In this document: positions 6,846 to 45,701 of the stretch, piece by piece
Numbering within the stretch: position 1 is the stretch's first letter
Layout: every line of letters starts with the position of its first letter
From: Sporomusaceae bacterium
GTDB taxonomy: Bacteria; Bacillota; Negativicutes; UBA1444
DNA: 64,000 nt
Assembly: GCA_018434355.1 (NCBI GenBank)
Contig: JAHDPL010000014.1
Span: 62,001-126,000 of the forward strand
Direction of reading: 5' to 3'
Made by a program: the position numbers and the translations under genes
The notes under the pieces: generated by a model
Told to the model about the DNA's origin: nothing
Databases searched by the model: none
Seen by the model: the letters and a program-made list of their open reading frames with translations, nothing else

Positions 6846-8030
6846 TTGAACAAAAAAACAATCCGCGATCTTTCCTTTAAAGGTAAGCGGGTTTTTGTCC
6901 GCGTTGATTACAACGTCCCGATGGACAAGGCAGGTAAAATTACCGACGATACCCGGATCAGCGCGACACTGCCGACCCTGCGCTATCTGCTCGAACAAGG
7001 CGCTTCGCTGATTCTCGGCGCACACTTCGGCCGGCCCAAAAACGGGCCGGCGCCCGAATTTTCACTTGCGCCGGTCGCGAATCACCTGTCTTCCCTATTA
7101 GGCAAAGAAGTGAAATTCGCCAGCGACTGCGTCGGGCCGATTGCCGAGACAGCCGCTGCCGCCCTGCAACCGGGCGAGGTACTGATGCTGGAGAATCTGC
7201 GATTTCACCCGGAGGAAGAAAAGAACGATCCGGGTTTTGCCAAGGGGCTTGCCGTTTTGGCCGATGTTGCGGTAAACGATGCGTTCGGAGTATCGCACCG
7301 GGCCCATGCCTCGGTCGAAGGAATCACCAAGTTCCTGCCGGCAGTCGCCGGTTTCCTGATGGAAAAAGAACTGGATTTTCTCGGTCGCGCGGTGACCACT
7401 CCCGAACGCCCCTATGTGGCGATCATTGGTGGCGCAAAAGTATCAGACAAGATCGGGGTCATTGCCAATTTGCTGACCAAGGTCGATTCCCTGCTGATTG
7501 GCGGCGGCATGGCCAACACCTTCATTGCGGCCCAAGGCTATAGCGTGGGAAAATCCCTGGTCGAACCCGATAAAATCTCTCTGGCTAAAGAACTGATTGA
7601 AAAGGCGAAAGCACGTGGAGTTCAGTTGCTTCTGCCTTCCGACGTCGTAGTCGCCGAAAAATTCGCCGCCGATGCAGCGCACCGCGTGGTTGCTGCCTCT
7701 GCAATCGGCTCGGAAGAAATGGCTCTCGACATCGGCCCAGCCTCTGCCGCCGCCTTTGCCGAAGCTCTTAACACAGCCAAAACCATCGTCTGGAACGGTC
7801 CGATGGGCGTATTTGAAATGGATGCCTTTGCCAAAGGCACCGAAGCAGTTGCCCAGGCCGTAGCCCATTCCCAGGCGGTCAGCATCGTTGGCGGCGGAGA
7901 CTCGGTAGCGGCGCTGGAAAAAGTCGGCCTGGCCGATCAAATCAGCCATATTTCGACAGGTGGCGGCGCATCGCTTGAGTTTCTCGAGGGCAAAGTTCTG
8001 CCGGGCGTTGCGGCATTAGCGGATAAATAA
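6846..8030 (+). CDS. pgk: Phosphoglycerate kinase
   Basis: A 394-residue kinase forming ATP from 1,3-bisphosphoglycerate. Visible family motifs are RVDYNVPMD near the N-terminus, HFGRPK, the hinge-region [26 protein letters not shown] and the nucleotide-binding [11 protein letters not shown] near the C-terminus. Translation starts at TTG 6846, preceded by AGGAGG that overlaps the end of gap, so coupling with gap is likely. The length is standard and nothing is missing. Confidence 0.98.
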
Positions 8031-8062
8031 CCGACAACAAAGCAAGTTAGGATGTGTTTTCC

Positions 8063-8836
8063 ATGCACAGCAAACGAAAGCCGGTCATTGCCGGCAACTG
8101 GAAAATGTTCAATACCACTAGTGAAGCTGCTACGCTGGTCAACGAACTCAGCTCCCTGGTTGCACGGTTTAACGACAGAGAAATCGTAGTCTGTCCGCCA
8201 TTCACCGCACTAGCAGCAGTCAGGCCGATACTGGACGAAACTGGTATCAAGCTGGGCGCGCAAAACGTCCACTGGGAAGAAAAAGGCGCTTTCACCGGAG
8301 AAATCTCGCCCGCCATGCTCAAGGACGCCGGTTGTGATTACGTCATCCTTGGCCACTCGGAACGTCGGCAATTCTTTGCCGAAACTGATGAAAATGTCAA
8401 CCGCAAGCTGAAGTCCGTACTCAAAGCCGGACTGATTCCTATCGTCTGCGTCGGGGAGTCGCTCTCCGAGCGGGAGGCAGGCATCACCTCGACGGTCGTG
8501 AGCCGTCAGATCAAAATCGGTCTGGATGGAATTGACGCAGAAAGCGCCAAAAAAATCATCATCGCCTACGAGCCGATCTGGGCGATCGGAACCGGGCGAA
8601 CCGCTTCGGCTGCAGACGCCAATGCCGTATGCGCGTTCATCCGCCTGACTTTGACCGGTATGCTCGGCACTCCCGTCGCCGATGCGATACGTATTCAATA
8701 TGGCGGCAGCGTCAAGCCGGACAACGTCGATGAATTGATGGGTTCCTCCGATATCGACGGGGCGCTGGTCGGCGGCGCCAGCCTGAAAGCCGACGATTTT
8801 GGCAGAATCGTTGGTTTTACCGCCACAAGCAAATAA
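8063..8836 (+). CDS. tpiA: Triosephosphate isomerase
   Basis: A 257-residue TIM barrel that interconverts dihydroxyacetone phosphate and glyceraldehyde 3-phosphate. The catalytic Lys is in AGNWKMF, the His in GHSERR and the Glu in AYEPIWAIGTGRTAS; the phosphate-binding GGSVKPDN and GALVGGASL are also present. ATG 8063 gives the canonical N-terminus (MHSKRKPVIAGNWKM). The in-frame GTG at 8054 is possible but not favoured, and the ribosome site here is weak (TTAGGATG). It is the third gene of the operon. Confidence 0.97.
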   Translation: MHSKRKPVIAGNWKMFNTTSEAATLVNELSSLVARFNDREIVVCPPFTALAAVRPILDETGIKLGAQNVHWEEKGAFTGEISPAMLKDAGCDYVILGHSERRQFFAETDENVNRKLKSVLKAGLIPIVCVGESLSEREAGITSTVVSRQIKIGLDGIDAESAKKIIIAYEPIWAIGTGRTASAADANAVCAFIRLTLTGMLGTPVADAIRIQYGGSVKPDNVDELMGSSDIDGALVGGASLKADDFGRIVGFTATSK

Positions 8837-8852
8837 TAAGGAGATTAAGATT

Positions 8853-10394
8853 TTGGCGCAGTTACATTCGCCGATTCTACTCACAATTTTGGACGGATGG
8901 GGCATCGGACGCTGCGATGACCCATCCAACGCCATTATACAAGCCGGCACGCCGAATATATCAAGACTGATGGAACAGTATCCCTGCACTGCTTTAAAAT
9001 GTTCAGGCGAAGCGGTCGGTTTGCCGGATGGCCAGATGGGCAATTCAGAAGTCGGTCATCTTAACATCGGTTCCGGTCGAATCGTATACCAAGAATTGAC
9101 CAGAATCTCCAAAGCCATCCGTGACGGAGATTTCTTCGCCAACCCGGTGCTGGTGCAAACTATGCAACAGGTGAAGCAGGCCGGAACCGCCCTGCACCTC
9201 ATGGGTTTGTTGTCTGACGGTGGCGTGCATAGTCATATCGATCATATCGTAGCCTTAGTCGAACTGGCGAAACGGCAAAACATCGAAAATGTATACATTC
9301 ATGCCTTTCTGGACGGGCGCGACACTGCCCCTGCTTCGGCCAACATCTTCGTAGATCAGTTGGAAAACAAAATGAAGCAAATCGGCGTCGGTCGCATCGC
9401 TACCGTCATCGGGCGTTACTATGCCATGGACCGCGACAAGCGCTGGGATAGAACTGAGCAGGCCTATGCGGCTCTGGTTTACCGGGAAGGTCTGCAAACA
9501 ACCACTGCCCGCGAGGCCGTTGAAGCCGCCTATGCCCGTGGCGAAACCGACGAATTTGTCAAACCGACGGTAGTGTCTGCCTGCCCCGCCTGCGGCATCA
9601 AAGAAAACGACGGAATTATCTTCTTCAATTTCCGACCAGACCGGGCCCGTCAGTTGACTCGCACATTCATCCTGCCGGATTTTGTCGACTTTCCTCGTCG
9701 CAACGGCTATTTTCCGGTCCATTACGCCTCGCTCACCCAGTATGACGAAACGTTCGATGTGCCTGTCGCCTACCCGCCGCAATATCTGAACGACACGTTG
9801 GGTGAAGTGTTCAGTCGCGCCGGCTATCATCAGCTACGCGTCGCAGAAACCGAAAAATACGCCCATGTCACTTATTTTTTCAACGGCGGCGAAGAAACGC
9901 CGTTCCCCGGCGAAGACCGTCAGTTAATCCCCTCGCCAAAAGTCGCCACTTACGATTTGCAGCCGGAAATGAGCGCGCCGGAACTAACCGAGGCGCTCCT
10001 GACCGCGATCCGTTCCCGCCAATTCGATCTGATCGTTTGCAACTTCGCCAATGGCGACATGGTCGGGCATACCGGCGTAATGCCTGCTGTGATAAAAGCG
10101 GTCACGATGGTGGATGAGTGTGTCGGCCGGATTGCCGAACTCGTTCTGGCGCAAGGCGGTGCAATGCTGATCACAGCCGACCATGGCAACGCGGACATGA
10201 TGCGCGATCCCGTAAGCGGCGAACCGTTCACGCAGCATACAACCAATGAAGTTCCATTCACTCTGGTTGCAGCGGCGCACCAGAACCGCCAATTGCATCC
10301 GGGTATCCTGGCCGATATCGCCCCAACAATCCTCGACCTGGCTGGATTGCCAAAACCGCCCGCCATGACGGGATGCAGCCTGATTATCAAATAA
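8853..10394 (+). CDS. gpmI: 2,3-bisphosphoglycerate-independent phosphoglycerate mutase
   Basis: A 513-residue Mn2+-dependent mutase of the alkaline phosphatase superfamily, interconverting 3- and 2-phosphoglycerate. The N-terminal metal motif is LTILDGWGIG, the phosphorylated Ser is in GNSEVGHLNIGSGR, and the second metal-binding cluster includes TADHGNADMM. The start is TTG 8853, after AAGGAGA at 8838-8844; a longer frame reaches back into tpiA and is not credible. It stands between tpiA and eno, as in many Firmicutes. Confidence 0.97.
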   Translation: MAQLHSPILLTILDGWGIGRCDDPSNAIIQAGTPNISRLMEQYPCTALKCSGEAVGLPDGQMGNSEVGHLNIGSGRIVYQELTRISKAIRDGDFFANPVLVQTMQQVKQAGTALHLMGLLSDGGVHSHIDHIVALVELAKRQNIENVYIHAFLDGRDTAPASANIFVDQLENKMKQIGVGRIATVIGRYYAMDRDKRWDRTEQAYAALVYREGLQTTTAREAVEAAYARGETDEFVKPTVVSACPACGIKENDGIIFFNFRPDRARQLTRTFILPDFVDFPRRNGYFPVHYASLTQYDETFDVPVAYPPQYLNDTLGEVFSRAGYHQLRVAETEKYAHVTYFFNGGEETPFPGEDRQLIPSPKVATYDLQPEMSAPELTEALLTAIRSRQFDLIVCNFANGDMVGHTGVMPAVIKAVTMVDECVGRIAELVLAQGGAMLITADHGNADMMRDPVSGEPFTQHTTNEVPFTLVAAAHQNRQLHPGILADIAPTILDLAGLPKPPAMTGCSLIIK

Positions 10395-10410
10395 ACTGAA
10401 GAGGTGATAA

Positions 10411-11697
<1,287 letters not shown>

Positions 11698-35578: not shown

Positions 35579-36457
35579 TCATTTATAAGGATATACAGTA
35601 ACCGTCATGGTGTTGGAATTTTGCAGATTGGTGAATTCGGCTTGAGCATCTTTGGGGAAGATATAGAAACCATGCTTCTTATTCCTGTCGACTGACGAAT
35701 TGGATAGAAGCGCCTTGGAATATCCAACAGTCATCAAACGTGGCTCCACTGGCACGCCAAACCCGGTAATCTGGGCATATTTTTGCCACACCTCGTTATT
35801 TTTGTTTGGCGAGAAGAGTTGCGTTCCATCAGGCGGATAGGCATTATAGAATGTTCGAAGATTGGTTGGCAGGGATTCGGGAACTGAAGTCCAGACAAAA
35901 CTGGGTCCAAAAATCCTATAGATCTTTTTCGGGCCGTATTCTTTCCAAACTAACTGATTCCACGGATTTCCCGCATTTGTCAAAGCGTTTGCGACATGGT
36001 TGAAGCTTTTGAATCCATACTCAAAGTCCTTTACACAGATATTGGAATCATCTGCTTTGAATTTCAACGTGATGGGATAAGAAAAATAATCCACATAGGA
36101 CAGGTCAATGGTGAATTTATCTCCTGTTACGGTGTATTCAAAAAAGCTGAACATTACTCCTGCGTCAGCATTTGTATCGAACGGGCTCGGCTGTCCGCCT
36201 GATTCGACTGTTTTCAGATGGTCGGAAGCGACCCATATCCTGCGTCCTGCCGCAGAAGCCAGGGTATGATTGGTAAGCGTTTTTCCATCCGCCAGCACAA
36301 TGGGGGTTTGGGTACTGCCACCTGTATCGTAAATATAAATCGGGCCGCCGGAAAGATTCACTATATTGACAGCTGGATTTGCCAACGCTATGGAACAACC
36401 AAACACCAGAACCAGGCAAACAACCAGACAAATCCTGATTTTGCTTACAAAATTCAT
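35579..36457 (-). CDS. Secreted GH64/thaumatin-like (beta-1,3-glucanase-like) protein
   Basis: A 292-residue exported protein with a signal peptide (1-26, CSIALANPA). The mature domain begins with VNIVNLSGGPIYIYD and includes GRRIWVAS, FSFFEYTVTGDKFTIDLSYVDYFSYPITLKFK and a later GFGVPV segment, the pattern of GH64 beta-1,3-glucanases and their thaumatin-like fold. In the FTIDLSYVDYFSYPI stretch the Asp and Tyr of the family are visible. I could not verify both catalytic acids, so activity is open. ATG 36457 follows GGGGG by 8 nt. Monocistronic. Confidence 0.75.
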   Translation of the reverse strand: MNFVSKIRICLVVCLVLVFGCSIALANPAVNIVNLSGGPIYIYDTGGSTQTPIVLADGKTLTNHTLASAAGRRIWVASDHLKTVESGGQPSPFDTNADAGVMFSFFEYTVTGDKFTIDLSYVDYFSYPITLKFKADDSNICVKDFEYGFKSFNHVANALTNAGNPWNQLVWKEYGPKKIYRIFGPSFVWTSVPESLPTNLRTFYNAYPPDGTQLFSPNKNNEVWQKYAQITGFGVPVEPRLMTVGYSKALLSNSSVDRNKKHGFYIFPKDAQAEFTNLQNSNTMTVTVYPYK

Positions 36458-36741: not shown

Positions 36742-39138
36742 ATGGGAGTATTGTGGCGGAGGCTCATGCGGTCCATCGGCGAAACCGCCGGTCAGTTCAT
36801 CGCAATGCTCACCCTTATTGCTTTGGGTGTTGGTTGCTACTACGGCATGAATCTCGCCCTGCTCAACCTGGTCAGGGTGCAGACAGATTTTTATCAGGAC
36901 ACGCGAATAGCCGATCATTACTTTCAGGTGCAACGTGCTCCTGTAACACTGCTGCCGCAAATCGAAGCAATTCCCGGCGTAGCACAGGCCACCGCGAGGA
37001 TTCAGGCCGATTTCAAAGTCCTGGACAATGGGAATCCGATCAATTTTGGGCGTCTGCTGAGTCTTGATCCCGATGATCCTGCTCCAATCAATGCCCTGCA
37101 GGTCATTGCCGGTCCTCCGGTCTCACGGCAAAGCCTGCAAGCCGACTTTGGCATCAGCGCGTATATCGATTCGCAGTACTTTTCCGAACATCGTTTGCGT
37201 GTCGGATCCGCTTTGGAAATTCTGACCCAAAAGCGACAGACGACCGTGGTTGTTACAGGCGCAGTCGCCACTCCCGACTATCTGTTCAAAATGCGCGACA
37301 ATCGTCAATTTCCTGATCGACGCGATTTTATCATCCTTCACATATCTCGTCGCAGCGCCGAAAAGTTACTGGACATGGAGGGCCTGGCCAATCAGTTCCT
37401 GATCCGTTATTCACCTGCTGCCAACCGCCTGTTTGTCCGCGAGCGTATTCAAACCTTACTGGAACCTTATGGCCTGACCGCGAGCTATCCGCAACAGGAT
37501 CAACCCAGCGTGAAACAGGTCGCTTCCCAGATTGACGGACTCAAATCAAGTTCTGCTTTGCTACCGACCGGCTTTTTTATCGCTGCAGTCGGCATCTTTT
37601 ACATTATCCTGCACCGTTTCATCGGTTTACAGCAACATCAAATCGGCATTTTGAAAGCGATTGGTTGCAGCACGCGCGATGTAACAATGCACTACGCGGC
37701 TTATGCTTTGGCCGTGACCCTGGCTGGAACGCTGCTGGGGCTATTGGCAGGTTCGTTCCTGGCTGCAGACGCTTTTACTACCTTCGCAGGGTTGCTTTCG
37801 TTGCCGACAAACTATGAACCGTTAGCAGCTTCCTTGTTTGCACTTACCATGCTGGGATCCGTTCTCGCCGGCCTATCCGTCAGTTTTTTCTCGGTGCGCC
37901 GCATTGCTTGTCTGAAACCGGCCGAGGCCCTACGAACCGCTGCGGCTTCCGACGCACTTGCTGAAGCGCCGCCGGATTCACCTTGGCAGCATGGCCTCGT
38001 TAGTTCATGGAAAATGACGTTGCGTTCGTTGCGCCGCAACCCAGGGCGGTTTGTCGTCACGTCAACCGGATTGACCATGACGGTCGCGATGCTGGTACTT
38101 GCCTTTTGTTATCTCGATTCACGCCACGATCTCAATCGGCGTTTTTTTGTCCTGGAACACCGCTACGACTACTACGCCGGCTTGGATAACGTCTACAAGT
38201 CTGACGAAATTGCTTATTTACGCGACGGTTCCGATATAAGCGGCCTGGAATCGTTGTTGGAAATCGCCGTCGAATTCAGTCCGGTAAATGAAAACGGCTC
38301 AAGCACCTATCCGAAGGAAGGAGTATTGTTGGGCGTAATGCCGGATGGCCGACTGCTTCAGCCCTTTGATGCGTCAACACAACCATTGCGCATTCCGGCG
38401 GAAGGAATCCTGCTCGATGCCAGGGTAGCCGAAAAACTCAAACTGTCCGTCGGCAAAAGGGTTCAGGTCAAAACACTGCCAGTTCGTGGAGTTTCTTACC
38501 AAGAGTCTTTCCCGATTGTTGGCATCGCCCGCCAGGATATGGGCGGCGGCTCGTTTGTTTCGCTTGAAACCGCGCAACGACTGATTCGTGAACCAGACGC
38601 AATCAACGCGGTTTTGCTGAAAACCGACTCGCCGCATTTGCCTGAACTGCCGCAACGGCTACTGGAAATCCCGGCGATTTCCCATGTTCAAAGCAAGGCG
38701 GTTTGGGCGGATATTTTCAGTCAACTGGTCGGCAGTATGACTTATTTTACGTATGTTATGATTGCAACCGCCGGACTGCTGGGTGCAACCATCGTTTTTC
38801 TTACTTCCCTGCTCAATTTCAGCGACCGTCGGAGCGAGCTGGCAACCTTGCGCGTTGTCGGCTGGAGTCTGAATCAGATTTCTCTGCTTCTGTTCAACGA
38901 AATCTTTTTATCAGCAGTTTTGGCTATATTGATGGGGTTCCCGTTGGGTAGGCAAGCCGGTTTTTCTTTTTTGACGGCGGCAAGCAACGAATCCTTCACC
39001 TGGCCGCATGTCATCTACCCGACCACTTTTCTATTGGCCGCTGGTCTGACGCTTTCGTTTGCTTTGCTTGGCCATTTGTTCGCGATGCTCCGAATTGGAA
39101 AGCTCCCCTTGGTGGAAGTACTCAAAAACCGCGAATAA
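36742..39138 (+). CDS. ABC exporter permease with two FtsX domains
   Basis: A 798-residue membrane protein. One N-terminal helix (about 15-38) and a large extracytoplasmic domain precede a three-helix FtsX block (about 265-400). A second helix, a second extracytoplasmic domain and a last FtsX block (about 660-790) follow. This is the ABC3/MacB-like duplicated layout used by exporters of lipids, peptides or lipoproteins. GGGGGAG lies about 11 nt before ATG 36742; the longer start at 36706 has no ribosome site. It is the first gene of an operon with a fusion protein and an ATPase, so it probably forms a tripartite-type exporter. Confidence 0.9.
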   Translation: MGVLWRRLMRSIGETAGQFIAMLTLIALGVGCYYGMNLALLNLVRVQTDFYQDTRIADHYFQVQRAPVTLLPQIEAIPGVAQATARIQADFKVLDNGNPINFGRLLSLDPDDPAPINALQVIAGPPVSRQSLQADFGISAYIDSQYFSEHRLRVGSALEILTQKRQTTVVVTGAVATPDYLFKMRDNRQFPDRRDFIILHISRRSAEKLLDMEGLANQFLIRYSPAANRLFVRERIQTLLEPYGLTASYPQQDQPSVKQVASQIDGLKSSSALLPTGFFIAAVGIFYIILHRFIGLQQHQIGILKAIGCSTRDVTMHYAAYALAVTLAGTLLGLLAGSFLAADAFTTFAGLLSLPTNYEPLAASLFALTMLGSVLAGLSVSFFSVRRIACLKPAEALRTAAASDALAEAPPDSPWQHGLVSSWKMTLRSLRRNPGRFVVTSTGLTMTVAMLVLAFCYLDSRHDLNRRFFVLEHRYDYYAGLDNVYKSDEIAYLRDGSDISGLESLLEIAVEFSPVNENGSSTYPKEGVLLGVMPDGRLLQPFDASTQPLRIPAEGILLDARVAEKLKLSVGKRVQVKTLPVRGVSYQESFPIVGIARQDMGGGSFVSLETAQRLIREPDAINAVLLKTDSPHLPELPQRLLEIPAISHVQSKAVWADIFSQLVGSMTYFTYVMIATAGLLGATIVFLTSLLNFSDRRSELATLRVVGWSLNQISLLLFNEIFLSAVLAILMGFPLGRQAGFSFLTAASNESFTWPHVIYPTTFLLAAGLTLSFALLGHLFAMLRIGKLPLVEVLKNRE

Positions 39139-39163
39139 TCTCGTGAAATGAGGAGTGCCCGGG

Positions 39164-40354
39164 ATGTTTGCCGAAGACAAACAAGAAAGCCGCCTATGGG
39201 TTCGCTACAAAAAAACCTTGACCGGACTCGTTCTAGCATTCGTGTTAGGTCTGTTTTACATGTTTTGGGCCGGCGCTGCAGAAGTGCATACAGTACGGGC
39301 TACACGCGGCAATATTGCGGTTACGGTCGACGAGATCGGCTATATTCAGGCGGATGACGAATATGACGTGCTGGCGCCGGTCAGTGGTTATGTCGGTCGC
39401 CTGACCACTGAGCGCGGTCATATTGTTCAGCCGTTGCAGGAGATTCTGCTGCTCGACTCGCCGGAAACCGACTCCCTGACAGAAACCATTCAGGCGGAAG
39501 TCAACCGGGTCGCCGCATCGCTCAACGAAGCAGCCAGCAATAACCAAATCGCCCTGCATGAACTGGCCGATGCGGAAAAAAAACTGAGCCAGAAAAAAAC
39601 CTTGCTGGCGGTCGGCGCGATCAGTCAACAGGAATATGATGATGCCCGACTTGCCTTGGACCGCCTGCGTAGCCGTGCGACGTCCACCGGCGAAATCATC
39701 GTCAATCTGCAGCGGCAGCTGGCGGCATTGCAGAAGCAACATCATTCCACAGACCGCAAACGAAACCAGCTGAGCGTCAAAAGCCCGGTTGCCGGAACGG
39801 TAATCTACCTGTTGCCCAAGCAGGGCGAGTATGTTGCTCACGGAACCATCGTCGCCAAGATCGGCAAAACCGGCCGAACCCGCGTCAATGTCGATGTGCT
39901 GAGCGATAACATGGGCCAGGTCGCGCTCGGTCAAAAAGTGACCGTCAACTCACCAGTCCTGCCAAGTCCGGTTTCAGGCATCATTAGCACGATTTATCCT
40001 CAGGCGTTTGAAAAAATATCGCCGTTGGGCGTTAACCAGCGCCGGGTTCGGGTGATTGCCGATCTGCCGGAATGGGGCAACCTGAAATCGGGCTACGAGG
40101 TGAGAATCTCCATTCTCAGCCAATTCAAGCAAGATGCCTTGCTGATTCCGCGGCAGGCGCTCAATCTCTCACCGCAGGGAGACTATGAAGTTTGGCTTGT
40201 AACGGCAGGCAGGGTGGAACGTCGCAAAGTCATGGTCGGACTAAAAAACCGACTCCATGTGGAAATCCTGAAAGGACTGGAGCCGCAGGACCAGGTGGTT
40301 ACCGTCAGCAAGACCGCTTTAAACGATAAGATGCGTGTTCGCAGTGTCGACTGA
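39164..40354 (+). CDS. Membrane fusion (HlyD/RND-type adaptor) protein
   Basis: A 396-residue periplasmic adaptor. One N-terminal membrane anchor (about 14-34) is followed by the first lipoyl half (YDVLAPVSGYVGRLTTERGHIVQ), an alpha hairpin (about 100-205, Ala/Gln/Lys-rich coiled coil), the second lipoyl half (LSVKSPVAGTVIYLLPKQGEYV) and beta-barrel and membrane-proximal domains. ATG 39164 is 9 nt after AGGAG; GTG 39155 overlaps that site. Its presence implies an outer membrane or thick envelope to cross, in line with a diderm host. It lies between permease and ATPase. Confidence 0.92.
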   Translation: MFAEDKQESRLWVRYKKTLTGLVLAFVLGLFYMFWAGAAEVHTVRATRGNIAVTVDEIGYIQADDEYDVLAPVSGYVGRLTTERGHIVQPLQEILLLDSPETDSLTETIQAEVNRVAASLNEAASNNQIALHELADAEKKLSQKKTLLAVGAISQQEYDDARLALDRLRSRATSTGEIIVNLQRQLAALQKQHHSTDRKRNQLSVKSPVAGTVIYLLPKQGEYVAHGTIVAKIGKTGRTRVNVDVLSDNMGQVALGQKVTVNSPVLPSPVSGIISTIYPQAFEKISPLGVNQRRVRVIADLPEWGNLKSGYEVRISILSQFKQDALLIPRQALNLSPQGDYEVWLVTAGRVERRKVMVGLKNRLHVEILKGLEPQDQVVTVSKTALNDKMRVRSVD

Positions 40355-40355
40355 T

Positions 40356-41495
40356 ATGAGCGGAGAATACAGCAGCGAGGGACTCCTTTCCATTAACTTG
40401 CAGGGCAAAATCTGCGTATTCAATCCAGCTGCCGCAGAAATTCTGGAAATGCAGCAGGACGAAGTGCTAAACCAGCCATTTGCACTCCATTTCTTCGACT
40501 ATGCAGAAAACGATGAATTCAACCAGATCATCCTGAATTTCTTTCTCCAGCAGTATGCCGGCGACATGTTTGTCGTCCCCTATTTCACCGGGCAAAGCCG
40601 CAAACTGCTGTTTCTGAAATGCAGTCTGGTTTATTCGCAGGAAACGGAAATTCCCGAAAAGATCGGCATGCTAGCTACGTTCCGCGATGTCAGCCATATC
40701 GCAGAAATTCGCAATGCGATACAGACCTCGGCTGAATGGAAAGTGCGGGAAAGCAGCGTAAAGACAGGGCTGGCCCAGCAAATAATCAACGCGACTCCTC
40801 TGATCTCATTGAAGTCTGTCAGCAAAACCTATCGGTCAGGTGAGCTTCCGTTTCAAGCTCTTCAGGCGACCAGCCTCGACATTTTCACCGGTGAGTTGGT
40901 TGTGATTCTGGGTCCAAGCGGTTGCGGCAAAAGCACACTGCTAAACCTGATTGGCGGTATGGACCAGCCCTCGTCGGGAGAAATCACCTATTGCGGCATC
41001 GACCTGGCCACAGCCGGCGACCGCCTATTGACCCGCTACCGCCGCAAGGAGGTCGGTTTTGTGTTTCAGTTCTACAATCTGATTCCCGACCTGACGGCAG
41101 GCGAAAACATCCTACTGGCCGCGGAATTGTCAGAAAAACCGCTGCCGCTCGGCATGGTGTTGGAAGAAGTCGGCCTAGCCGATAAGGTCAACCATTTCCC
41201 CGCGCAGCTGTCCGGCGGTGAGCAACAAAGGGTATCTATCGCCCGCGCCCTAATTAAACAGCCGAAATTGTTACTTTGCGACGAACCGACCGGTGCGCTC
41301 GACAGCAAAAATGGCAAAATCATCCTTGAACTGCTGGAACATCTTTCGCGACAGAGTAACCGCACTGTGGTGATCGTCACCCATAACACGGCGATTGCCG
41401 CCATTGCTGACCGTATATTCAAAATGCGCAATGGTCAATTGGTGGAAAGTTACCGCAATCCATTCCCGATTTCCGTCAAACAAGTTGAATTATAA
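40356..41495 (+). CDS. ABC ATPase with N-terminal PAS-like domain
   Basis: A 379-residue fusion. Residues about 8-117 look like a PAS sensor: GLLSINLQGKICVFNPAAAEILEMQQDEVLNQPF, then KLLFLKCSLVYS and IGMLATFRDVSHIAEIRN, the usual PAS ending into a helix. After a linker (118-148) comes a MacB/LolD-type ATPase: Walker A GPSGCGKST (186-194), signature LSGGEQQR (285-292), Walker B LLLCDE (305-310). It pairs with the FtsX permease and adaptor. The start ATG overlaps the end of the previous gene (TGATATG) with no clear ribosome site, so coupling is likely. The PAS domain could gate export by ligand or redox state; this is inference. Confidence 0.88.
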   Translation: MSGEYSSEGLLSINLQGKICVFNPAAAEILEMQQDEVLNQPFALHFFDYAENDEFNQIILNFFLQQYAGDMFVVPYFTGQSRKLLFLKCSLVYSQETEIPEKIGMLATFRDVSHIAEIRNAIQTSAEWKVRESSVKTGLAQQIINATPLISLKSVSKTYRSGELPFQALQATSLDIFTGELVVILGPSGCGKSTLLNLIGGMDQPSSGEITYCGIDLATAGDRLLTRYRRKEVGFVFQFYNLIPDLTAGENILLAAELSEKPLPLGMVLEEVGLADKVNHFPAQLSGGEQQRVSIARALIKQPKLLLCDEPTGALDSKNGKIILELLEHLSRQSNRTVVIVTHNTAIAAIADRIFKMRNGQLVESYRNPFPISVKQVEL

Positions 41496-41513
41496 TGGCG
41501 ATATGAGGTGCGA

Positions 41514-42581
41514 ATGGAGTTAAGGCAAAACGTCGACTGGAACGATTATATTGAATTGCTCCGGCAAGTCTACCGGCCTTTTTCACAGTACCGCGATAAC
41601 AACGCGCAACTCGTTCGCGAAATTGTTGGCGATGCCAGTTTGTTTAGCCGAAATATCGCGAAATCCTGGGTCGGCGTTTACGATCACGGGAAACTGGCGG
41701 CGGCAGCCGTGTTGATCTGCAGCAGACAAAAGCCAGACTACCTCAGCCTGGCGTTTTTTGAGGCGCTAAATTCGCCGACGGCGATTCATCTATTGCTGGA
41801 CCATGCAAAACAGCTTGCTGCGAAGTGGCAGGTTCCCAAAGTCGTGGCCGGCCTTAACGGTCACATGAATTACGGGATGGGACTACTTTGCGACAACTTT
41901 GATCAACCGGTGTCCTTCTGGTCCTCATTCAATCCGCCTTATTACTATGATATTTTAAAACAGACTGCCGAACAGGAATTCGCTCTCACTTCGTTTGTTT
42001 TTGACCTGAACAGTTTGGATTTCGACAAATTTAAGGCTTTGTTCTCTCGGCTTGACAGAAGGTTTGTCTATCGTATAGCCAATTTGAAAAAACTCAATCA
42101 GGAGATGACCGTGTATACAGACCTGATCAACGGCTGTTTTGTTGATCATCCGTTTTACTGGCAACGAACCGAGGCGGAAAATCTTGAAATGGTCGATGCG
42201 CTGCTGCCTTTCCTGCGGGGAGAAAACCTGATTGTCGCTGAAGAAAATGGCCAAGCCGCCGGTTACATCCTATGGCATCCAGATTTCAACCAACTGCTTT
42301 CCCCGGGTCAGTCTCTCGGCTTTGCCGCACTGCTGAAATATCGAATCGGTTGGCCAAAGATCCGTCGCTTCAAAATTGCCGAAATCGGCGTCTTACCAAA
42401 ATACAAGGGGTCTGGCCTCATTTTCGGCCTGCTGCGCGAGTGTTTCCGGTTGGCCATGAGTCGATACCAGAACTGCGAAAGTGGTTGGATCATGGAGGAT
42501 AATTTTCTCTCGAAAAACCTATGCAGTCACTTTGCCGGGCAGGAGTACAAACACTACAAAGTCCTTGAATATCGTATTTAA
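41514..42581 (+). CDS. GNAT-like acetyltransferase-fold protein of the export operon
   Basis: A 355-residue soluble protein. The N-terminal part (WVGVYDHGKLAAAAVLI) and the C-terminal part (ENLIVAEENGQAAGYILWHP, then IAEIGVLPKYKGSGLIFGLLREC) show the strand and acyl-CoA loop pattern of GNAT domains. The second has an R/Q-x-x-G-x-G/A-like loop (PKYKGSGL). It may modify the exported substrate or a self component. GAGG is 5 nt upstream of ATG 41514, 18 nt after the ATPase gene. No closer family is recognised. Confidence 0.65.
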   Translation: MELRQNVDWNDYIELLRQVYRPFSQYRDNNAQLVREIVGDASLFSRNIAKSWVGVYDHGKLAAAAVLICSRQKPDYLSLAFFEALNSPTAIHLLLDHAKQLAAKWQVPKVVAGLNGHMNYGMGLLCDNFDQPVSFWSSFNPPYYYDILKQTAEQEFALTSFVFDLNSLDFDKFKALFSRLDRRFVYRIANLKKLNQEMTVYTDLINGCFVDHPFYWQRTEAENLEMVDALLPFLRGENLIVAEENGQAAGYILWHPDFNQLLSPGQSLGFAALLKYRIGWPKIRRFKIAEIGVLPKYKGSGLIFGLLRECFRLAMSRYQNCESGWIMEDNFLSKNLCSHFAGQEYKHYKVLEYRI

Positions 42582-42632: not shown

Positions 42633-43571
42633 ATGAAACGAAACAACGTCTTGCTCGGGTTAATTTTTTTGCTCGCTGTGTTTCTCGGCTGGCTGAGTTA
42701 TTGCAGACTTGAGTCAACTGATCGGGAAAACTACCTTGACTTCAGAAAAGTCGCCGCAACGCCGATTGCCTCGGCCTTATCCAATGACAAGCAAGCGCTT
42801 CGCATCGTTGTGTTTTCGATTCTGTTGCCACAGGATACAATTGTCCACTACCGAACAATTGCCAACTACCTGGGCGAAAAAGTCCAGCGACCGGTAATTT
42901 TGATTCAACGCAAGAGTTATGCTGAAATGGCCGTGTTACTACTTAACGGCGGCGCTGATCTGGCATTTTTTTCTTCCGGTGGCTACAACAGTTTCCGAAA
43001 TGTTGGTGAAATGGAAGTCCTTGTCAGCCAACAACGCATGGGGCAACCTTACAATCAGGGATTTTTACTTGTGGCAAAAGATAGTGATGCCAAAACTCTG
43101 GCCGATCTGCGGGGCAAGACGATTGCATTCTCTGACCCGCTAAGCTATTCCGGCTATAGCTTTTTGGCGGAAATGCTGAAAGAACAACAGGAAACTCCGG
43201 AAACTTTTTTTGGTCGTTATATTTATACCTACAATCACGAAAAATCTTTCCGGGCGGTCGCGACCAAACTGGTCGATGCAGCAGCCGTAACCAGCTTGAT
43301 CTATTACCGGGCCCAACAGAAAACGCCTGAACTCGCCGATGCGGTAAAAATCATCGCACTATCGCCGCCGTTTGGCGCCGGTCCTGTGGTTGTCGGAAAA
43401 AGTGTCAATCTTGCGCAGCGCGATGCTTTGCGTAAAAGTTTGTTGACGATGCATGAAGATCCCCGCGGAAAAGCAGCCTTGGCAGGATTGATGATCGATA
43501 AATATATCCCGGCAAATCTGGACTATTATGAACCGAAGCGCGGCACTGGCTTTGCCCGGATAAAACCATGA
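42633..43571 (+). CDS. PhnD-like periplasmic binding protein
   Basis: A 312-residue exported protein with an N-terminal membrane segment (about 7-22) as anchor or signal. The fold markers of PhnD-type phosphate/phosphonate-binding proteins are present: ALRIVVFSILLPQDTIVHYRTIANYLGEKV, YAEMAVLLLNGGADLAFFSSGGY, LADLRGKTIAFSDPLSYSGYSF and a late VGKS. GAGGTG precedes ATG 42633. The last 4 nt overlap the histidine kinase start (ATGA). No PhnC/PhnE genes follow, so it probably senses a ligand for the kinase rather than feeding a transporter. Confidence 0.9.
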   Translation: MKRNNVLLGLIFLLAVFLGWLSYCRLESTDRENYLDFRKVAATPIASALSNDKQALRIVVFSILLPQDTIVHYRTIANYLGEKVQRPVILIQRKSYAEMAVLLLNGGADLAFFSSGGYNSFRNVGEMEVLVSQQRMGQPYNQGFLLVAKDSDAKTLADLRGKTIAFSDPLSYSGYSFLAEMLKEQQETPETFFGRYIYTYNHEKSFRAVATKLVDAAAVTSLIYYRAQQKTPELADAVKIIALSPPFGAGPVVVGKSVNLAQRDALRKSLLTMHEDPRGKAALAGLMIDKYIPANLDYYEPKRGTGFARIKP

Positions 43572-45037
43572 AACACTTGCTTAGTCGAATTTCCATCTAC
43601 CATCGCATTTTGGCTACCATATTATTGATCATCGTGATTTTAAGCAGCACGGTAGGTTTGGTTGTCTGGGATTCGATGAACAAATTCGTTTCACAGCAGT
43701 TGACCAAACAAGGTATTGATACGGCAACCAACCTCGCATTGAGCAGCAGCAACGTCATATTGCTGGATGACTTTTATCAGTTGCACGAACTGGTTTCGCA
43801 AGCAGCTGCAAGCAGTGAAGATATCCGTTACATCATGGTATTTGATGCGGGAAAGCGCTTGCTTGCCCATTCTTTTCAGGGCGGGGTTCCGCAGGCAATC
43901 CTTTCATTTGATACGCCGGCGATGTCAGCGTCTGAACAAGTCAGACTGTTTAATTCAAATGAAGGAAGGATTCATGACATCATAGTGCCGATTGAGCACG
44001 GCGCAGTGGGTTTTGTCAGAATCGGCATGACCGAAGCGTTTGTCAAGCGGTTGTTGCTGCAACATATCGGCAATATCGCCGTAGCCTTCCTATTGGTGGG
44101 CATACTAGCGGTTTTTCTCTCGAGCGCCATTGCAAAAAAAATCACCCGCCCGATCGATGCATTGGTACAAACGGCGGAAGCGATTACACAAGGGAATCTG
44201 GTTGTCCGGTCCAATATCGGAGAGCAGGGCGAAGTCGGCAAACTGGCCAAAGCCTTTGACGAAATGACCCATAGTTTAATCAGTGCAACGAAGGAAAAAG
44301 AAGGTCTGCTCAAAGAACTGATTGAAAAAGAACAGCTGCGCAATCAACTGATTCAGAAGTTGATCACGGCCCAAGAGGATGAACGAAAAAGGCTATCGCG
44401 GGAATTGCATGACCAGACGAGCCAGGCCCTGACCTCACTGATGCTGACAATGCGTATCCTGGCCGAGGATGCGACAACCGAGAGCCAAAAAGAAGCCTTG
44501 CGCATTGGTCGTGATGTTACGGCCGGCCTGCTGAAAGAAGTGCGGGAAATGGCGATCGAGCTCAGGCCGCCGGTTCTGGACGATTTGGGCTTGATTCCGG
44601 CGGTGAAAAAATATATCGCCCCATTTTCGGAGCGGCATCAATTGGAAATCCAGTTTGCCGCCAATGACAATGGCGCCCCGATCGAAGGCAATACAGCCAT
44701 TGCTGTATATCGCATCCTGCAGGAAGCACTGAACAACGTTGTGAAGCATTCCGGCGCTAGCCGCGTGCGAATTGTTTTAAACAATGATAGCGACAATATT
44801 GCGATTACGATTGCGGATGACGGTTGTGGCATTTCAGCCGATGATCTGGCAAGAGCGATGCAAAATAACAGGATCGGTTTGTTTGGCATGCGGGAAAGAG
44901 TGGAGTTGTTGTTTGGTCGGTTTGAACACAACGTTTCGGCCGAAGGCGGCGTGGAACTGATGATTACGATTCCGCATCAACATCGGGAAAGGAGACCTTT
45001 TCTTGGAGCAGAAGACAACGATTTTATTGACGGATGA
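43568..45037 (+). CDS. Membrane sensor histidine kinase, NarL-type partner
   Basis: A 489-residue kinase: membrane helices at about 13-34 and 167-188 around an extracytoplasmic domain of about 130 residues, HAMP (190-240), HisKA_3 dimerisation domain with the phosphorylated His at 281 (SRELHDQTSQ), and an HATPase_c domain with ALNNVVKHSGA, DDGCGI and GLFGMRERV. It follows the PhnD-like protein in an ATGA overlap, and the response regulator starts inside its 3' end. A sensor complex of binding protein and kinase is likely. Confidence 0.93.
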   Translation: MKHLLSRISIYHRILATILLIIVILSSTVGLVVWDSMNKFVSQQLTKQGIDTATNLALSSSNVILLDDFYQLHELVSQAAASSEDIRYIMVFDAGKRLLAHSFQGGVPQAILSFDTPAMSASEQVRLFNSNEGRIHDIIVPIEHGAVGFVRIGMTEAFVKRLLLQHIGNIAVAFLLVGILAVFLSSAIAKKITRPIDALVQTAEAITQGNLVVRSNIGEQGEVGKLAKAFDEMTHSLISATKEKEGLLKELIEKEQLRNQLIQKLITAQEDERKRLSRELHDQTSQALTSLMLTMRILAEDATTESQKEALRIGRDVTAGLLKEVREMAIELRPPVLDDLGLIPAVKKYIAPFSERHQLEIQFAANDNGAPIEGNTAIAVYRILQEALNNVVKHSGASRVRIVLNNDSDNIAITIADDGCGISADDLARAMQNNRIGLFGMRERVELLFGRFEHNVSAEGGVELMITIPHQHRERRPFLGAEDNDFIDG

Positions 45038-45701
45038 TCATCAATTGCTTCGTGCCGGACTGAAACTGCTGCTGCAGCGTTACACCGAACTCGAAGTGAT
45101 CGGTGAAGCGGCGGATGGAGAAGAAACGCTTGCTTTTTTCAGCCAGCGGCAACCGGATCTCTTGCTGCTGGATTTGTCGATGGCCAAAATGAATGGCCTG
45201 GAGTGTATGAAAGAAGTAAAAAGCCGCTACCCAAAAACAAAGATCATCATCCTATCGATGCATGAAGACGAAACCTATATCAAGGAGGCGATGATGTCAG
45301 GCGCGGCGGCCTATGTGCATAAAAGCGCAGCAGATACCGATCTGTACAAAGCAATATGTACCGTACGCAGCGGCGGATTCTACCTCGCCCAAAAAGACTC
45401 CGATATTCTGCTGCATGCCTTGATTCATGCTGAAAAACCTGTGCCGGATGAAAACGAACCTTTTACGCTGCTCAGTCCGCGCGAAAGAGACGTAATGCGT
45501 CTGATTGTTCGCGGCCATTCCCTGTCGGAAGTAGCGGCTAAACTCTGCCTTAGCATCAAGACAGTGGACACATATAAAGTCAGGATCATGGCGAAGATCA
45601 AAGCGACGCGCAAAAGTGACCTGGTAAATTACGCGATTAAATACAAAATGTTGACAGATGCCGATACGACAGAAACCGACATTCCTACAACCAAGGTGTA
45701 A
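45003..45701 (+). CDS. NarL/LuxR-family response regulator
   Basis: A 232-residue regulator: receiver domain with acidic pair DD (11-12), phospho-acceptor D57 (LLLLDLSMA) and K after LSMHEDE..; C-terminal LuxR helix-turn-helix (LLSPRERDVMRLIVRGHSLSEVAAKLCLSIKTVDTYK). TTG 45003 follows AAAGGAGA by 8 nt and overlaps the kinase gene by 35 nt. The importer genes 135 nt downstream are the natural target. Confidence 0.95.
   Translation: MEQKTTILLTDDHQLLRAGLKLLLQRYTELEVIGEAADGEETLAFFSQRQPDLLLLDLSMAKMNGLECMKEVKSRYPKTKIIILSMHEDETYIKEAMMSGAAAYVHKSAADTDLYKAICTVRSGGFYLAQKDSDILLHALIHAEKPVPDENEPFTLLSPRERDVMRLIVRGHSLSEVAAKLCLSIKTVDTYKVRIMAKIKATRKSDLVNYAIKYKMLTDADTTETDIPTTKV

Follow-up and report, generated by a model that had tools for sequence, protein, structure and literature searches.

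A PAS domain fused to the ATPase of a type VII (MacB superfamily) ABC exporter in a Sporomusaceae bacterium

RESULTS AND DISCUSSION

An exporter operon with a PAS-bearing ATPase

The window, by which we mean the whole 64,000-nucleotide stretch of a Sporomusaceae contig analyzed here, carries a four-gene operon encoding a permease, a periplasmic adaptor, an ABC ATPase with an N-terminal PAS domain, and a GNAT-family acetyltransferase (Table 1). The FtsX permease and adaptor reported in the first-pass annotation are borne out by domain profiles: the first gene combines FtsX/MacB units with the periplasmic core domain, as in type VII (MacB superfamily) systems, and the second scores 129.6 bits against TIGR01730 (cut-off, 94.9). 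Hydropathy gives the permease a 1+3, 1+3 transmembrane (TM) pattern, about 8 TM in all. A role in substrate modification or in regulation is possible for the GNAT enzyme. The operon has no TolC gene, and TolC-like proteins are encoded elsewhere in the genome, so export across an outer membrane is possible.

Directly 3' of the GNAT gene, at 42633 to 45701, lie consecutive genes for a PhnD-like binding protein, an sCache-HAMP-HisKA_3 kinase and a NarL-type regulator, which may together form a two-component system assisted by the binding protein. A Glyco_hydro_64-like secreted protein is encoded divergently from the exporter genes, on the reverse strand at 35579 to 36457.

Table 1. Genes of the exporter operon and domains of the fusion protein, in window coordinates
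Feature	Position	Strand	Length	Details
Permease, first operon gene	36748..39138	+	796 aa	Two FtsX/MacB units; two PF02687 stretches, PF12704 (MacB_PCD)
Periplasmic adaptor, HlyD/MacA-like, RND_mfp	39155..40354	+	399 aa	One N-terminal TM; TIGR01730
PAS:ABC ATPase fusion	40356..41495	+	379 aa	Single uninterrupted ORF; start ATG at 40356, 1 base 3' of the adaptor stop (TGA T ATG)
PAS domain	40377..40691	+		Residues ~8-112; PF00989, AlphaFold2, alignment with relatives
C-terminal PAS helix and linker	40692..40799	+		Residues 113-148; weakly conserved; helix 113-146 in the model
ABC ATPase domain	40803..41492	+		Residues 150-379; ABC_tran; every catalytic motif present
GNAT-family acetyltransferase, fourth gene	41508..42581	+	357 aa	Possibly tandem GNAT; PF00583, 26.6 bits

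The proposal that a PAS segment precedes the ATPase in one frame holds at the level of the open frame, the Pfam matches and the predicted fold. The Pfam PAS profile PF00989 (cut-off, 22.6 bits) scores 23.0 bits on the whole protein and 25.3 bits (E = 1.7e-5) on residues 1 to 145, so the N-terminal PAS passes the profile check suggested for it; the ortholog in a second genome, G314 (see below), scores 19.6 bits, slightly under the cut-off. AlphaFold2 with 20 homologues predicts a PAS fold for residues 9 to 111 and, after it, a helix (residues 113 to 146), with a mean pLDDT of 87. The model has the five-strand sheet of a PAS domain with helices between strands 2 and 3 (strands 9-14 and 18-22; helices 24-63; strands 71-77, 82-94 and 101-111), and its top PDB matches in Foldseek are PAS/LOV chains (E ~1e-6 to 1e-5), with no solved structure close to the domain by sequence. 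Residues ~8 to 112 are thus a genuine PAS domain. The full-length model gives no confident placement of the PAS domain relative to the nucleotide-binding domain (NBD), with pLDDT below 50 at residues 12 to 52 and 127 to 142.

As for the sensor chemistry, a LOV photosensor was considered and rejected: the GxNCRFLQ motif is absent, and the sole cysteines within residues 1 to 148 are C20 and C89. Nor does the PAS sequence offer an obvious candidate for a haem ligand.

The ATPase domain matches ABC_tran (122 bits in the whole protein) and retains all its motifs: Walker A (GPSGCGKS, 186), Q238, LSGGEQ (285), LLLCDEP (305), the D-loop (313) and H343. Structurally, it is closest to MacB and MJ0796 by Foldseek, with 42% identity to the ABC domain of Escherichia coli MacB (5lj9), and its fold also matches YbbA (9ge8). 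A MacB/LolD-like NBD with intact catalytic motifs is, like the permease, characteristic of type VII systems. Two residues set apart the fused ATPases of the window and G314: position 190 in Walker A (window 40923-40925) is Cys in both but Ser in 98% of stand-alone relatives, and both have Leu in place of the C-terminal Trp typical of the family.

A transporter that is neither MacB nor Lol

The earlier label "MacB/LolD-type" applies to the ATPase fold but not to the whole transporter, which is neither MacB nor Lol: its ATPase and its duplicated permease are separate proteins, an arrangement shared with YbbAP, and it includes a MacA-like adaptor. E. coli YbbAP likewise pairs a separate ATPase with one ~800-amino-acid permease of two FtsX/MacB units, but it differs in lacking the MacA-like adaptor and the PAS-bearing ATPase found here. 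No TesA-like gene, as in YbbAP-TesA, is present among the neighbors scanned, and YbbAP has 10 TM compared to ~8 in the permeases of both the window and G314, a figure from hydropathy, which is a crude test. MacAB-TolC shares the MacA-like adaptor and MacB-type ATPase, whereas here ATPase and permease are separate chains, the ATPase carries a PAS domain, the permease is duplicated, and TolC is not in the operon; the score against the one-chain MacB model PRK10535 is 200 bits, far under its cut-off of 966. LolCDE was tried and rejected, with 210.7 bits against TIGR02211 (LolD; cut-off, 307.75) and 33 against 362 for lolCE.

Distribution and selection of the fusion

The permease family is widespread, occurring in 107 of 398 sampled genomes of the phylum (matches at E up to 1e-60). 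We examined 40 loci from named genomes and 60 further neighborhoods, partly overlapping and together covering ~90 distinct permeases. Wherever the ATPase gene of these relatives was found, it carried no PAS domain, and the ATPases are mostly 230 to 260 amino acids long. Gene order is ATPase-permease-adaptor in 85 of 91 relatives, while the fused pair has the ATPase gene in third place instead of first. In the permease tree, the two fusion operons group together with full support, on a long stem within a large clade of Clostridia-type exporters, and the ATPase tree requires a single change of state to account for the fusion.

The four longer ATPase ORFs that were checked (280 to 337 amino acids) have no Pfam domain ahead of the ATPase. 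The 70 to 107 extra N-terminal residues of the ORFs L148:8692-9702 and L156:7822-8721 contain no Pfam domain and may be start overcalls. In a Syntrophomonas MAG (L053:3797-5992), an ATPase of this exporter family lies in frame behind a multi-TM segment of ~500 amino acids, 731 in total; this ORF is either another odd fusion or a MAG error.

A first scan of genome contigs with the PAS sequence gave 0 matches. A PAS query over 380 genomes of the class located the same fusion in two, the window's genome and G314, a member of another family. The first-pass annotation had called for such a search in other genomes, and the G314 protein matches from end to end (72% identity over 379 amino acids). Its operon has the same four genes (permease 62%, adaptor 66%, PAS:ATPase 72% and GNAT 63% identical). 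The rest of the fetched G314 stretch has no further gene matching the window, so the four-gene block is the shared part. On plasmids, the PAS query returned four E. coli AtoS-type matches at ~25% identity and no close relative. The architecture, suspected to be rare, is rare within this exporter family (2 of 380 class genomes, against ~90 PAS-free relatives), the survey having covered this PAS subfamily and this phylum.

Between the two fusions, pN/pS is 0.18 for the PAS domain, 0.20 for the ATPase and 0.54 for the linker, whose residues 113 to 148 are 46% identical. Since synonymous sites are near saturation in this pair, the low value for the PAS domain indicates that it is maintained by selection; purifying selection on it is as strong as on the ATPase.

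Origin of the PAS domain

PAS domains are small sensors that most often belong to signaling enzymes. The closest relatives of the fused PAS domain come from one genus of the class (17 genomes) and from two further genomes, G421 and G679. All proteins of that genus that were read through are PAS-GGDEF proteins, as is the G421 relative, and the G679 relative is a PAS-class III cyclase. The fused PAS shares motifs such as END.FNQ and TG..K with these cyclase-type relatives in the alignment and lacks an N-terminal helix present in the PAS-GGDEF proteins.

The gene run in G421 (L082:5770-6720 and 6870-11127) comprises an ATPase-permease-adaptor set of the exporter family studied here, followed ~150 bases on, on the same strand, by a PAS-GGDEF gene, which thereby occupies the position held by the PAS:ATPase gene in the window. 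This adjacency, one case among ~90 relatives and found after the fact, links the exporter family with the PAS subfamily. The G421 domain is not specifically nearest to the fused PAS in the tree of PAS domains. The arrangement is a lead and does not prove descent.

A possible route to regulated export and its alternatives

Type VII ABC systems, which include FtsEX, LolCDE, MacAB and YbbAP, run on ATP-driven mechanotransmission. We consider it moderately probable (about 0.62) that the operon encodes a PAS-tuned YbbP/MacB-superfamily exporter with a MacA-like adaptor, its PAS domain having been acquired from a pool of cyclase-controlling sensors, and we infer that a cytosolic signal biases NBD closure. 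The ATPase would have gained its N-terminal PAS from sensors whose usual outputs are diguanylate and class III cyclases. YbbAP has two ATPases per duplicated permease (PMC12646458), and by analogy two PAS:ATPases on one duplicated permease would place two PAS domains at the flanks of the NBD dimer. In MacB-type systems, reversible NBD dimerization is coupled to periplasmic motion (PMC5985334). A cytosolic ligand, cofactor or redox state could alter PAS packing, the helix linker would relay this change to the NBDs, favoring or hindering ATP-dependent closure, and mechanotransmission and export would thus be set in real time.

Direct gating of export by a cytosolic signal, as originally suggested, is plausible in light of the strong purifying selection on the PAS domain, the cyclases driven by its sister domains and the two PAS domains that two ATPases would provide. 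More tentatively, a cyclase-type PAS sensor might have been moved onto the ATPase of a type VII exporter, and the cytosolic signal to which a nucleotide cyclase responds in other settings would then gate the pump directly. On this view, the PAS-GGDEF gene beside the exporter genes of G421 would represent this sensor and exporter joined in trans.

PAS domains commonly dimerize. The PAS domain could therefore be a structural dimerization or assembly module that senses nothing but holds or stabilizes two ATPases on an asymmetric duplicated permease. The loosely conserved linker is as compatible with a tether as with signal relay, and MlaFB offers a precedent, its ATPase dimerizing through a C-terminal tail and requiring a STAS partner to be stable (PMC7367683). 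Such a role is unlikely given that the nearest PAS relatives read sit on signaling enzymes and that the core motifs END.FNQ and TG..K are kept from the cyclase versions. Rather less probable is a PAS domain serving as a docking site for another protein, such as the GNAT enzyme or a signaling partner, with control by protein contact instead of a small ligand. The GNAT gene adjoins the fusion in both genomes, and the putative transporter Rv1747 has an FHA domain with which the universal stress protein Rv2623 interacts (PMC5549992), but the GNAT enzyme might just as well modify the substrate that is exported.

The small number of carriers (two genomes) and the shift of the ATPase gene from first to third place would also suit an accidental, functionless fusion left by rearrangement, which is very improbable, as the PAS amino acids are as conserved as those of the ATPase at near-saturated synonymous sites, the fold is confident and the same fusion occurs in two families. 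A frame-fusion or assembly artefact joining two genes, named in the first-pass annotation as grounds for abandoning the idea, can be dismissed, because an independent genome (G314) has the fused protein right behind the same adaptor gene.

Relation to other transporters with regulatory domains

On the preferred reading of a PAS-tuned exporter, the natural PAS-ATPase fusion would be a built-in handle for switching a type VII machine by a cytosolic signal, and whether such an exporter is controlled directly at the post-translational level would become testable with purified components. The fusion also lends support to the idea that regulatory domains are plug-in parts which transporters recruit. 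No PAS-ABC exporter or PAS-type VII ATPase fusion was found described in the open literature, which was the scope of our search, subscription papers lying outside it. Judged by that literature, PAS on a type VII exporter ATPase is new, and regulatory domains on other ABC ATPases and PAS on major facilitator superfamily (MFS) transporters are already known.

Among ABC proteins, the Mycobacterium tuberculosis putative exporter Rv1747 has FHA domains, and both a kinase and a stress protein regulate it (PMC5549992, PMC3908365). It resembles the present case in that the chain with the ATPase also bears a fused signaling domain, but differs in the domain (FHA instead of PAS), the transporter type and the mode of control, which there involves phosphorylation and the binding of a partner. 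MetN, ModC and OpuA have a cytosolic regulatory domain or feature added to the ABC ATPase (reviewed in PMC10710835); in contrast to the fusion described here, these are importers, the additions are non-PAS, and in MetN and ModC the domains are C-terminal. The same review lists MFS transporters fused to PAS, CNBD or UspA domains, and the MFS-PAS fusions share with the present ATPase the recruitment of PAS as a plug-in domain, although they are secondary transporters and not ABC ATPases.
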